DNA of 64,000 nt from Roseomonas sp. OT10. GTDB taxonomy: Bacteria; Pseudomonadota; Alphaproteobacteria; Acetobacterales; Acetobacteraceae. The notes below the pieces were generated by a model. The model saw only the letters and a list, made by a program, of their open reading frames with translations, did not search any database and was not told the origin of the DNA. The translations under genes and the position numbers were made by a program. Position 1 is the first letter of the stretch. Each line of letters begins with the position of its first letter. The stretch spans positions 310,001 to 374,000 of the forward strand of contig NZ_CP087719.1 in NCBI RefSeq assembly GCF_020991085.1, written 5' to 3'. Positions 30,284-45,015 of this stretch are shown here, one piece after another.

Positions 30284-30359
30284 GGGCGCATAGCTCAGTT
30301 GGTAGAGCAGCTGACTCTTAATCAGCGGGTCCTAGGTTCGAGCCCTAGTGCGCCCACCA
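30284..30359 (+). tRNA. tRNA-Lys (anticodon CTT)
   Basis: A 76-nt gene with encoded CCA. Acceptor stem GGGCGCA/TGCGCCC, D-arm AGCTCAGTTGGTAGAGCA, anticodon stem GCTGA/TCAGC around CTCTTAA (anticodon CTT, reading AAG), T-arm with GGTTCGAGCC. Its 3' part from 30314 to 30359 is duplicated exactly at 44970-45015, where it forms the far end of an integrated element. Confidence 0.97.
30314..30359 (+). repeat. attL: 46-bp direct repeat (tRNA-Lys 3' half)
   Basis: Runs from the anticodon loop (ACTCTTAATCAGCGGG...) to the CCA end; identical to 44970-45015. The base before it differs (G here, T at attR), fixing the left limit. Confidence 0.95.
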
Positions 30360-31225
30360 CGGTTTTCAGATACTTAGGCAGTTTCCTGACCCGCTGACTT
30401 TGCGGACCCAGGCAGCGCGGACCTGTAGCGGACCCACCGAGACAAGGTTCGGCTTCATCCAGCCCCTCGGCTTGGTGCCACAGTCCTTGCCCTCCCCAAG
30501 CTGGGGGGGGTGGCCGCAAAGCTCCCAGCGCCTCCGGTCTCGACCGCGCCCCCAGGCGAATTTTCCCGCGCGCGAATTAAATTTTCCGGCCGCATTAAAT
30601 TCGGCGGAGGCCGGCCTGAAGGGGGGGAGGGGGGCAAATCTTCGGGCCGGGCCGGGGGTCCCCAACCGCACCGGGGTCATTCGCAGAATTTTTCCCCGCC
30701 GAGGGGATCGGGGTGCGGACCAGCGGCGAAACGCCAGTAAATGCTGGGGATTTTGCATCCGTTGCAGCTTTGAATGGTTCGCAGGGGTGCGGACCTGCTG
30801 CGGACTGCGGACCCTGGCCTTGGCGCAGAGGCGGCCCCCCCACCCCCATGGGTCCTTCCCCGGGTCCGGCGTATTGCGGTGGGGCGGAGCGTGTTCACCG
30901 TCTAGGCAAGGCGCACTCATAGGGGGTTCCGCTTCCGCTTCGGCAGATCGCTAGCAAATGCGGGGGATTTGGCCCCACCACAGGGCACTTTAGCTGCACG
31001 GACCCGGGGTAGGGGTTCCGCTTCGCCGTCGCCTCAGCCGGGATGGACATTGATGTTACCCATGGGGTCCGTGGTGCCTAGCGAACCCGCGCGCTCTCGC
31101 CACCCGTATTGCGCGAACTCGGGGGAAGGACCCGGCCGGAGCTGAGGTATTCCCCGGCTCTTTAGGGGCTGACAAAAGTCCTCGTCACCGCCCTCGCGCG
31201 CGCGGGCGTACTGCGCGGAAAAGCC
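30360..31225. other. noncoding left end of the island with GCGGACC repeats and an AT-rich patch
   Basis: No convincing gene in 866 bp. GCGGACC occurs at 30402, 30417 and 30428 (15- and 11-bp steps) next to attL and again at 30715, 30789 and 30807, with GCGGACT at 30800. An unusually AT-rich patch at 30557-30604 includes CGAATTAAAT facing ATTAAATTCG. The motif AAATGCTGGGGATTT lies at 30739 and a variant at 30956. GGGGTTCCGCTTC occurs twice (about 30923 and 31012). The arrangement suits integrase/excisionase arm sites and perhaps a replication origin. Confidence 0.5.
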
Positions 31226-31588
31226 CTACCGCTCCGCCCAGCGTCCCACCAGCGGCCGGGCTTCCTTCCTGCCGGCCCGCGCCGCGTCTGCTAGGTCCGC
31301 TCCACGCGCCACCGCCAGCAGGAAGGACAGCGGCCGGGTGTCGTTCGCCGCCATCGCCCCACCCCAGCCGGCAGGGGGTGGCGGCAATCCGGGCAGCGGC
31401 ACGTCCCACAACCCCTGCCGCAGCATCCGCGCCGCTTGGCGGATGAGGCGAGCGGTGGCGATGCCCTCTGCACTCCACCGACCGTGCCGTTGGTTGCCGT
31501 GGTGGTGGGCCGGAGGGGGCAGGCCGTCGAGCTGGCGCGCGGCCCGGTAGGCTGCCCAGCCGGCGGAGCGGGCGGGATCAGCCACCAC
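31226..31588 (-). CDS. hypothetical protein, last gene of the island operon
   Basis: A 120-residue protein, not recognised. It has a helical middle (SAEGIATARLIRQAARMLRQGLWDVPLPG) and a C-terminal FLLAVARGADLADAARAGRKEARPLVGRW. Its start lies 11 bp inside the end of the preceding gene (31578-31847), supporting real translation-coupled coding. Only this frame shows balanced, non-arginine-dominated composition. Confidence 0.5.
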   Translation of the reverse strand: MVADPARSAGWAAYRAARQLDGLPPPAHHHGNQRHGRWSAEGIATARLIRQAARMLRQGLWDVPLPGLPPPPAGWGGAMAANDTRPLSFLLAVARGADLADAARAGRKEARPLVGRWAER

Positions 31589-31847
31589 GGCTCGCGTCTC
31601 CCTCTGCGGGGAACATCGCTTCCCCCATCAGCGCCACCCCGGGTGCTGCCGCCAGGAAGCGCGCCACCGCTTCGGCCACGTCGCGACCGTCCCGCTCGCC
31701 GGCTCGCAGCAGCCCGAGCCTTTCCAGCGCGTGCAGCGCGGACCGGTCCACCTCCACCGGAGCCAGCACCACCCCACGGCGGCGGCGGTTGCGGTAGGCT
31801 GCCGCCCGATCCGCCGCGCTGATCCTGCTCTCCTCATCGCTCGTCAT
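31578..31847 (-). CDS. hypothetical island protein
   Basis: An 89-residue protein, not recognised. Contains a probable small helical unit, VEVDRSALHALERLGLLRAGERDGRDVAEAVARFLAAAPG, resembling by composition a DNA-binding or dimerisation helix pair, after a basic stretch AYRNRRRRGVV. Overlaps the following gene by 11 bp and the preceding degenerate gene by 14 bp. Confidence 0.55.
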   Translation of the reverse strand: MTSDEESRISAADRAAAYRNRRRRGVVLAPVEVDRSALHALERLGLLRAGERDGRDVAEAVARFLAAAPGVALMGEAMFPAEGDASRGG

Positions 31848-32177
31848 GGCGTGTCGCGAATCTCCTGCTTTCAGGGCTGTTCTCAGCGAATGGCGTGACG
31901 GATTTCCCTCGTTTCCCGCGGTGTGTTTTGGGAGGACGTGACGACCTTTCCTCCATGCCGCCAGCAGCTTGCGGAGCTGACTTGTCCCCTTCGGCGTCCA
32001 TCATCAGGCACGGCTCGCACCGTGCAGCGGGCCGGCGGCAGCGGCACGAAGGCATCGCCACAAGCCGCGCAGGTCCGGGCCGGATGCCAGTGGAGCCAAC
32101 GGGTAGGCAGGCGCCGCACCGGTACCACGGGAATGACGGTGGCGCCGGAAGGGATGCCGCAGGACAGGCGCGGTCAT
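31834..32177 (-). pseudogene. frameshifted zinc-ribbon gene
   Basis: No single frame gives a sensible protein here, but three frames in succession do. An ATG in an ATGA overlap with the methyltransferase stop (32177) reads MTAPVLRHP; the next frame continues SGATVIPVVPVRRLPTRWL and HPARTCAACGDAFVPLPPA; the third continues RCEPCLMMDAEGDKSAPQA and runs to a stop at 31834, overlapping the next gene. Joined, they give a C-x2-C...C-x2-C zinc ribbon. Two +1 shifts imply a decayed gene, or base-call errors in the assembly. Confidence 0.45.
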
Positions 32178-43444: not shown

Positions 43445-44797
43445 TTACCCTGCCCGGCGGCGGTGGCGAGGCGGCAGCGGCAGCACGTTGCCGGCGGCCG
43501 GGGTGAGACTGCCGCACGCCAGGACGTGCTTGCCCCAGGCGTCCAGGGCGGTCTTCCGTTCGGCCAAGAAGTCGTGCCGCTGGTACACGGCGGCGACGCC
43601 TTGGATGGCGCCGGTCACGTGGTTCAGCAGCCGGTCCGCCACATGCGGTGGGAACCCGGCCCCGGCGAGCCACGTCACGGCCGTCCGCCGGAAGTCGTGG
43701 AATCGCCAGTCGGGCGCGGCGGGCGAAGGCGCCACCGCACGGGACCCATGGCGCCGAGGTGGGGCAGGGGCGGCAGGCGGGGTGCCAGCCTCGGCCGCCA
43801 TGGCTTCGGCCAGCGCCGCCTTCGCCTTACTGAACCCGGAGGGCGGCGTCTCCCCGGTCACGGTGAACACCAACGGCCGGCCCTCGATCCGCTCCACGCC
43901 CCGCAGCACGTCGCGGGCCGCGTCAGACAGATGCACCACATGCGCCCGGCCGTTCTTCGCCCGTTCCTTGGGGATGGTCCATGTCGAGAGGTCCGGCGCC
44001 AGCTCATCCCAGCGCAGCCCGGCCACTTCCTCGCGCCGCTGCGCCGTCAGCAGCAGCAGCCGCACCACCGGGCCGAAGGGGAAGCCCAGCTCGCCTGCCG
44101 CACGCCACAGTGCCCCTACCTCGGCAGCGGTTAGCACGCGGTCGCGGGAGGGGGCGCCGCCGGCTAGCGTTGGCAGGTCCGCGAAGGGGTTGGCCGCGAG
44201 GCGCCCCCGCTTGCACGCCCAGCCGTAGCAGGCACGCCCATAGGCCAGGGTCCGCGCCGCGATGGGCGCCTTGCCCGCGGTGGCGAGGGCGTCCAGCACG
44301 TCCAGCACCGCCGCGCGGTCCAGGGAGGCAGCAGGCTTGCTGGCATGGCCGGCGAAGGCATGAAGGATCGCGCGCTGTGCCTCGGCCCGGTAGCGGTCGG
44401 ATCGGTTTGCCAGGTGCAGCGCCGCCCACTCCTCCACCAGGACCCGCAGCGTCAGGGCAGCGTCCCGCTTGGCAGCGGCGGCGGCGGCGCGTGTGGCTTC
44501 GTCGGCTGCCTTCCGCGCGGCCCTCTCCGCAGCCAGGTCCACCCCCTGCGCCACCCGGCCTAATCTCGCCTGCGCCGCCGTCCGCGCCTGCGCCAAGGTG
44601 ATGCTGCCCCACGGCCCCAGCGGCTCGCGGACCTTGCGGCCGGTGGCGGGGTCGGTGGTCTGGCAAAGGAACAGCTTGGCTCCCGATGCGGTGGCGCGGA
44701 GTCCCAGCCCCCGGCACTCCGTATCGAAGGCCAGCCGGTCCTTCCGGCCGGGTTCGGGGGCGAAGGAGGCGATCCATCGTTCGGTGAAGCGCGGCAT
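43445..44797 (-). CDS. int: P4-type tyrosine integrase
   Basis: A 450-residue site-specific recombinase. N-terminal arm-binding domain of the DUF4102 type (residues 1-95: FDTECRGLGLRATASGAKLF, LGPWGSITLAQARTAAQ), a SAM-like core-binding domain (about 110-200), and the catalytic domain with Arg in LLLTAQRREEVAGLRW, Lys in IPKERAKNGR, HDFRRT, LLNHV and the nucleophile Tyr in VYQRHDF near 420. A spacer in the catalytic domain (about 325-350, AEAGTPPAAPAPP) is unusual but lies between conserved motifs. It reads away from attR, 172 bp distant, as in other tRNA-targeting islands. Confidence 0.93.
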   Translation of the reverse strand: MPRFTERWIASFAPEPGRKDRLAFDTECRGLGLRATASGAKLFLCQTTDPATGRKVREPLGPWGSITLAQARTAAQARLGRVAQGVDLAAERAARKAADEATRAAAAAAKRDAALTLRVLVEEWAALHLANRSDRYRAEAQRAILHAFAGHASKPAASLDRAAVLDVLDALATAGKAPIAARTLAYGRACYGWACKRGRLAANPFADLPTLAGGAPSRDRVLTAAEVGALWRAAGELGFPFGPVVRLLLLTAQRREEVAGLRWDELAPDLSTWTIPKERAKNGRAHVVHLSDAARDVLRGVERIEGRPLVFTVTGETPPSGFSKAKAALAEAMAAEAGTPPAAPAPPRRHGSRAVAPSPAAPDWRFHDFRRTAVTWLAGAGFPPHVADRLLNHVTGAIQGVAAVYQRHDFLAERKTALDAWGKHVLACGSLTPAAGNVLPLPPRHRRRAG

Positions 44798-44808
44798 GTT
44801 CCGATCCC

Positions 44809-44900
44809 TTGCGGACCCGCTGCGGACCCGTAGCGGACCCGGCTGGCGCGTGTCTTACGGCAGCCTGTGGCAGCTCGTGTCACGCTTATTCCGCGGACCA
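44809..44900. repeat. GCGGACC repeats near attR
   Basis: GCGGACC at 44811, 44822 and 44833 (exact 11-bp steps) plus 44893, between the integrase start and attR. The same 7-mer clusters next to attL at 30402-30434. Probable arm-type integrase binding sites. AT-rich GGGGAAAAACAAGGAAATG follows at 44902-44920. Confidence 0.65.
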
Positions 44901-44969
44901 TGGGGAAAAACAAGGAAATGTGGAAGGTCATGGCGTCGCGTGGCAGGCCGTGTCGCCTCACTGACGCTT

Positions 44970-45015
44970 ACTCTTAATCAGCGGGTCCTAGGTTCGAGCC
45001 CTAGTGCGCCCACCA
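44970..45015 (+). repeat. attR: 46-bp direct repeat of tRNA-Lys 3' half
   Basis: Identical to 30314-30359, from the anticodon loop to CCA; the tRNA 5' half is absent here. Marks the right end of the island. 45016-45297 beyond it shows no supportable gene. Confidence 0.95.

Follow-up and report, generated by a model that had tools for sequence, protein, structure and literature searches.

The origin of satellite P4 is two-part and contains iterons, and the accessory set of P4 comprises psu, sid, delta and epsilon. In phage-inducible chromosomal islands (PICIs), the origin lies directly 3' of rep and consists of two sets of iterons, and Gram-negative PICIs of the EcCICFT073 type combine it with int, AlpA and primase/rep, transcribed mostly in one direction (PMC6092414, available part). 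According to extracts of the respective papers, a helicase function is predicted for the DUF927 domain, and origin reading for winged-helix C-termini (PMC5862659); the DUF927 protein Cch is related to Rep of the Staphylococcus aureus pathogenicity island (SaPI) SaPIbov1, and SaPI Rep uses its C-terminal domain to read iterons that lie downstream of the gene (PMC7581432); crr and the origin of P4 are also mentioned (PMC9942202). Here we describe a 14,656-bp island of Roseomonas sp. OT10, situated 3' of an intact tRNA-Lys(CTT) gene in a 64,000-nt window (the whole stretch of DNA analyzed, NZ_CP087719.1, 310,001-374,000; coordinates are positions in this window, congeners are other genomes of the genus, and numbers with L or G are locus and genome labels). 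The island shares these features of Gram-negative PICIs, its regulator being AlpA-like, and has, in addition, a second, inverted iteron array 3' of int, for which the available part of PMC6092414 contains no mention in Gram-negative PICIs.

Twin iteron arrays and the replication module

The 10-mer GGTCGGGACA (at most one mismatch) forms two arrays in the island: six sites directly 3' of rep (33531..33646) and nine directly 3' of int (43219..43400), 11 of the 15 sites being exact. With signs for site orientation and bracketed numbers for spacers, array 1 reads --(21)+(56)--- from rep, and array 2 reads +++(35)-(21)++(12)+(55)-(21)+ from int, i.e., +++(35)-(21)++ followed by a second, overlapping unit (12)+(55)-(21)+. 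Array 1 has the mirror layout: the same module, made up of three sites, one inverted site, and two sites, is present in both arrays in opposite orientation. The double unit GGTCGGGACAGGTCGGGACA, allowing up to two mismatches, was found at three places in the 5.69-Mb genome, all within the arrays, while a control pattern was found at none. The twin inverted arrays of one iteron module are a new finding, and no description of a second iteron array 3' of int was found in the accessible texts of the literature searched. The preliminary description of the island, made from the sequence without database searches, had overlooked both arrays.

Every long inter-iteron spacer of the island (33560-33604, 43251-43294, and 43349-43372) contains a CCCAGCA box. 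Two other islands of this genome have similar boxes in their non-coding stretches; none was evident in the array spacers of the other elements compared.

The replication genes are encoded on the minus strand. The 693-aa Rep (33684..35765) is an initiator-helicase of the SaPIbov1-Rep type with a DUF927 domain (Pfam, 2e-63; phrog_1139, 1e-78), and the adjoining gene (35708..36718) encodes a 336-aa primase-like protein (phrog_16950, 2e-13), in agreement with the self-contained primase-helicase module proposed earlier. Homologs of the primase with 54-58% identity were found in five congener loci, in four of them directly before rep. A profile built from 34 Reps matched PDB 8tch, "Pathogenicity island protein" (1.3e-33), and PDB 5dgk (8.4e-25). 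As in SaPIbov1, where iterons lie downstream of the gene (PMC7581432, extract), the DUF927 helicase is followed by cis iterons, six of them starting ~38 bp past the rep stop codon; the two iteron sets directly 3' of primase/rep known from PICIs are thus also present. Unlike SaPIbov1-type elements, the island has a separate upstream primase-like gene and the second array 3' of int.

At E <= 1e-20, 72 of the 299 family genomes contain relatives of Rep, and at E <= 0.001, 10 of 15 genomes of the genus do, that of the island included. When viral contigs were scanned closely with the island Rep as the sole query, no relative was found; the search with the Rep alignment yielded 181, of which 80 were kept. 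In a tree of 77 rows (quick method, SH-aLRT support) the island Rep paired with that of congener locus L005 (65%), within a clade of 15 rows (support 96) that includes Rep of L095, a capsid-bearing, capsid-forming PICI (cfPICI; here and below, this label is assigned by gene content). The same family occurs in a cfPICI of Klebsiella pneumoniae and a P4-like satellite of Escherichia coli.

Arrays in related elements

The comparison covered 108 DUF927-rep loci with distinct 3' sequence, taken from records of the genus, the family, IMG/VR, phages, and plasmids; near-copies, chiefly of the E. coli type, are numerous among them. In 86 of the 108, the 7-mer array 3' of rep scored above all 60 shuffles. 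The iteron units differ among loci (GGTCGGAAC, GGTGTAAC, GGTGGAACAG, GGTAACA, GGTGTGAC, and others), the commonest spacing being 9 bp. Six of eight further loci from the plasmid collection scored above all 100 shuffles, including the E. coli P4-like satellite and the circular K. pneumoniae cfPICI; L177 and L179 did not. Arrays directly 3' of DUF927 genes are also present in free circular replicons, namely Legionella fallonii plasmid III (L030) and Methylobacterium pMNOD05 (L031). Two other plasmids or plasmid-borne islands, L174 and L178, have arrays at this place too.

The array layout was compared between the island and ten elements chosen for having arrays at both places. Nine of them have the paired inverted layout (L199, L114, L106, L153, L144, L167, L168, L205, and L143). 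If extra sites are allowed, both arrays show it in full in the island, L199, L153, L167, and L168, the others having sites missing or added; the inner spacers are mostly ~20-24 bp, and the outer ones ~32-37 or 54-57 bp. The tenth element, L136, was excluded from the count since its arrays are fragmentary; another frame had been taken there as rep, and partial arrays of one unit occur at both places. As one unit was used per element, this comparison cannot test whether the units of the two arrays match. Detected de novo, an array 3' of int is present in 19 of 72 non-redundant loci, and its unit recurs 3' of rep in 11 of the 19. Since units differ between elements and match within the element in these 11 cases, the specificity of Rep may be readable from DNA alone. 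Other arrangements also occur: L099, L103, and L166 have no significant array directly 3' of rep, the second array of L025 is 5' of int, and that of L151 is ~1.1 kb past int.

Arrays 3' of int were found in 11 of 15 capsid-bearing loci vs. five of the 36 capsid-less loci in which 5 kb or more past rep could be seen (Fisher p = 7.6e-5, no tree correction), and in three of 21 loci, the island included, with <5 kb visible past rep. An earlier count gave 7/10 capsid-bearing vs. 4/47 capsid-less loci. One capsid-less element with an array 3' of int, L205, has a tRNA gene ~2.9 kb past rep.

Relation to capsid-forming islands and other satellites

The cfPICI L199 of Roseomonas sp. KE0001 is located at a tRNA-Arg gene. 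Its order is int - array - xre - p132 - primase - rep - array - d1 - portal - major capsid protein (MCP) - HNH - terminase small subunit (TerS) - terminase large subunit (TerL) - tRNA, and that of the island is int - array - MmeI - xre - p133 - p132 - alpA - primase - rep - array - d1 - methyltransferase and small open reading frames (ORFs) - tRNA. What the two have in common is the order int-xre-p132-primase-rep-d1 together with twin inverted arrays of the module, with identities of 56% for xre, 50% for the primase, 46% for rep, 44% for d1, and 36% for p132. The portal-to-terminase block of L199 has as its counterpart ~3 kb of other genes in the island.

The combination of int with a DUF927 rep followed by iterons is also shared with the IMG/VR cfPICIs L143, L153, and L167, and with L176, the cfPICI of K. 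pneumoniae (NZ_CP069874, circular, 15,995 bp), which has int, AlpA, and DUF927 like the island; in L176, an array of the Rep-type unit is located 3' of rep only, whereas the island has arrays 3' of both rep and int. The late genes of L143 and L167 were assigned by PHROGs to portal, major head protein with protease, head-tail adaptor, HNH, TerS, and TerL. While cfPICIs encode portal, major capsid, HNH, TerS, and TerL proteins, tblastn of the whole element with these five late families yielded no homolog in the island. The P4-like satellite L180 of E. coli, located beside yjgB, resembles the island in its integrase, AlpA, and DUF927 initiator (TOPRIM/DUF927 in L180) with GGTGGAACAG iterons 3' of the gene. 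It has an annotated psu; in the island, neither psu nor any other gene named as a member of the P4 accessory set was matched in the Pfam and PHROGs scans.

The preliminary description had claimed that the island lacks virion and conjugation genes, and had named capsid- or portal-like homologs among the hypothetical genes as a finding against its satellite reading. Sixteen ORFs were scanned with Pfam, and 18 plus one spurious frame with PHROGs. These scans and tblastn yielded no convincing virion, terminase, or relaxase match and no capsid or portal homolog, which agrees with the claim; mobilization genes likewise had no match in the Pfam and PHROGs scans of the element proteins, no oriT search being made. 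The only virion-type matches were weak ones of the AlpA-like helix-turn-helix (HTH) protein to terminase small subunits (0.0013 and 0.054), its excisionase score being far better. Aside from these cross-matches, no structural or tail module of its own was matched in the island, in keeping with PICIs, which lack a full one.

We consider it probable that the island is a PICI-type satellite, which would be excised by Int and the AlpA-like protein, replicated by Rep from the iteron modules, and packaged by a helper; it is best read as a capsid-less sibling of the alphaproteobacterial cfPICIs. The satellite-like character proposed earlier is supported and made more specific by the gene order of L199, the twin module, and the occurrence of the Rep family in both a cfPICI and a P4-like satellite. 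Other genomes had been suggested as the place to look for the same core; the gene order shared with L199 was found in one. We infer the following course. The integrase and the AlpA-like protein, acting as an excisionase or activator, would excise the island from tRNA-Lys as a circle. Rep would bind the GGTCGGGACA iterons and be loaded as a helicase at origins in which three sites are followed by a spacer, one inverted site, and two more sites, with the neighboring primase priming synthesis. As the module is present in opposite orientations 3' of rep and 3' of int, Rep could open either copy or pair both. A helper phage particle would be needed for transfer, because the island has no head or terminase genes, and the MmeI-type enzyme carried as cargo could restrict competing phages. 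Tentatively, and with less confidence than we place in the satellite itself, the twin inverted 3-1-2 module may have a function that is characteristic of alphaproteobacterial cfPICIs and of their siblings without capsid genes: by binding at both arrays, Rep would pair them or fire both and make replication depend on the state of the integrase end, perhaps also on the adjacent restriction gene, the island being a natural capsid-free derivative that keeps the system.

Several observations weigh against assignment to the PICI-type satellites or the proposed role of the arrays. No helper, packaging site, or transfer has been demonstrated for the island. Its integrase is only 29% identical to that of L199, in which no homologs of its alpA, p133, and MmeI genes were found. 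The spacers of its arrays are not clearly AT-rich, the two iteron sets of Gram-negative PICIs flanking an AT-rich region; 22 of the 108 rep loci lack an array by the shuffle test, and eight of the 19 int-3' arrays found de novo are unlike the rep array of their own locus. Covariation of the iteron unit with the Rep C-terminus was discarded as proof of iteron reading by that part of Rep: the Mantel r was 0.18, but the partial r given the helicase domain was 0.083, and 87 of 1000 permutations were as high. Relatives of Rep are found in plasmids and in islands mobilized by conjugative plasmids.

The last point bears on a reading that we regard as unlikely, namely that the island is mobilized by a conjugative plasmid or an integrative and conjugative element, like MGIVch or SGI1, with rep and the origin merely stabilizing the excised form. 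DUF927 genes are ubiquitous in IncC-mobilized islands similar to MGIVchHai6, yet dispensable there for mobilization (PMC7449626, extract), SGI1 replicates from iterons downstream of a rep of another kind (PMC7433901, extract), and an int/AlpA/DUF927 island was seen on a Salmonella plasmid; against these stand the lack of relaxase and mobilization matches noted above and the fact that, of the backbone matches seen, the best is that of a cfPICI. DUF927 modules on circles of 14.6 and 20.3 kb would suit an integrative plasmid-like replicon, which is either transferred as naked DNA or immobile and replicates for its own maintenance, but this is quite improbable, as the island keeps the cfPICI gene order and an int-3' array of a kind mostly found in capsid-bearing elements. 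Slightly less probable still is a dead cfPICI remnant that has lost its head genes and its mobility. The missing capsid module, with ~3 kb of unrelated genes in that position, and the non-coding stretch near the left end, which resembles a relic, would fit such decay. The open frames of int, alpA, primase, rep, and the restriction-modification gene, the perfect att cores, the 11 of 15 exact array sites, and the existence of other capsid-less elements with an int-3' array, such as L205, speak against it.

Read as a PICI-type satellite, the island places capsid-less members of this group in Roseomonas-like bacteria; satellite terms were not found together with either Alphaproteobacteria or Roseomonas in the literature searched. 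The matching inverted iteron module 3' of rep and int is a signature that may allow satellites with and without capsid genes to be recognized as one backbone, a conserved replication-integration chassis on which the head genes form an exchangeable block. The arrays 3' of DUF927 genes in plasmids and islands may also give an origin-binding role to the DUF927 genes of IncC-mobilized islands, whose conservation was called surprising (PMC7449626, extract).

Attachment site, cargo, and other islands of the genome

ARAGORN and a repeat finder agree with the earlier description of a 14.7-kb island in tRNA-Lys(CTT) flanked by perfect 46-bp direct repeats. The last 46 bases of the intact tRNA gene (30284..30359, plus strand), the attachment target, form the attL core (30314..30359, plus strand), which is repeated perfectly in the attR core (44970..45015, plus strand) with a start-to-start spacing of 14,656; 50-mers around the cores are 98% identical. 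An exact repeat of 46 bp is far beyond chance, and together with the arm-type integrase it corresponds to the integrase and att site of PICIs. The G+C content (~0.66-0.77 along the island) is similar to that of the flanks. Motif scans revealed three GCGGACC boxes near attL (30402..30434, plus strand) and three, with 11-bp spacing, near attR (44811..44839, plus strand). They are possible integrase arm sites, a role regarded as no more than possible because two other islands of the genome contain identical boxes in a non-coding stretch in their interior. A non-coding stretch of the island with GCGGACC boxes (30664..30813), matched by blastn at 71-74% identity in two further small islands of this genome, is possibly a relic origin.

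The tRNA-Lys loci of relatives were compared, as advised in the preliminary description as a way to see the empty site. Among the fetched loci, the core is present in 13 of 14 congeners (G004 had no core match), with a rodA homolog adjoining in 11; two congeners have second copies of the core on other contigs. The DNA beyond the congener tRNA-Lys differs from that of the window; it is common to G011, G006, and G003, where one core copy was seen. The island int gene was not found past the congener tRNA-Lys, with 12-20 kb examined in most, ~4 and ~6 kb in two, and the G004 locus left out. The right-flank gene had no ortholog at these loci (best match 49%), and therefore no clean empty site could be demonstrated. 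In the L199 genome, a related integrase (52%) is located ~310 bp from an identical core, no intact tRNA being present in that stretch; in four other fetched stretches with related integrases, including the closest one (56%), the core was not found.

The 450-aa tyrosine integrase (43445..44797, minus strand) is of the P4 type, as first described, with Phage_integrase, Arm-DNA-bind_3, and Phage_int_M above the cut-offs and a match to phrog_1. The protein first described as an AlpA regulator, a 75-aa AlpA-like HTH regulator or excisionase (37313..37540, minus strand), matched HTH_17 above the cut-off and phrog_66, "excisionase and transcriptional regulator" (3e-11); Phage_AlpA itself scored 19 bits, below its cut-off of 21. 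The conserved 88-aa HTH protein of the Xre type (38999..39265) is encoded on the opposite, plus strand and is a candidate repressor, judging by weak PHROG repressor matches and HTH_31/HTH_3 matches below the cut-off.

The type IIL restriction enzyme named earlier as cargo was identified as a restriction-modification enzyme of the MmeI type (type IIL/IIG; 40039..43005, minus strand; 988 aa from the likely ATG) by MmeI_Mtase/hel/TRD and REase_MTase_IIG (2e-285). Its homolog (60%) in Roseomonas sp. 18066 (L192:193-3144) is located beside an xre/primase/rep set, in the direction opposite to that of the rep, and the enzyme thus appears to be recurrent defense cargo. Array 2 is directly upstream of the likely MmeI start codon (43005-43215). 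Binding of Rep there could also affect expression of the restriction gene.

The remaining genes are on the minus strand. The ORF d1 (33080..33514), directly after rep and array 1, has similar ORFs after rep in L016, L026, L199, and L204, and no match in Pfam or PHROGs. A class I SAM methyltransferase (32174..32941; Methyltransf_11, 1e-13) is cargo at the place of the cfPICI capsid genes. Two small ORFs of 83 and 78 aa lie between alpA and the primase gene (36715..37199; ORF scan), the former with a 50% match in L026. The small conserved proteins p132 and p133 (38089..38885) have homologs in congener elements, p132 also in the cfPICIs L095 and L199, and p133 in two other islands of the genome.

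A lambda-like prophage region (C1 ~138000-170000; L232, L233) with a GpA-type TerL (C1:151897-152637), a head/protease fusion, tape measure, tail, and tail fibre genes is a candidate helper. The terminases PF03354, PF17289, and phrog_2 had no match in the genome. A packaging site common to the island and this region was sought and discarded, only words of 16-24 bp being shared, with no convincing cos or pac. Three more portal genes were found in or near small islands of the genome, inside which none of the four TerL families searched was matched. These islands, at C1 ~5130000-5141000 (L186/L187) and ~4224000-4235000 (L188/L189), with a shorter copy near C1:189900 (L184/L185), contain integrase, portal, and major head protein genes, the head DNA of the three being 96-98% identical. 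The p133 gene is present in L186/L187 and L188/L189, and the former, the one tested, also has a D5_N/DUF5906 primase; DNA of the p133 region and a non-coding origin-like stretch are common to L186/L187, L188/L189, and the tRNA-Lys island.

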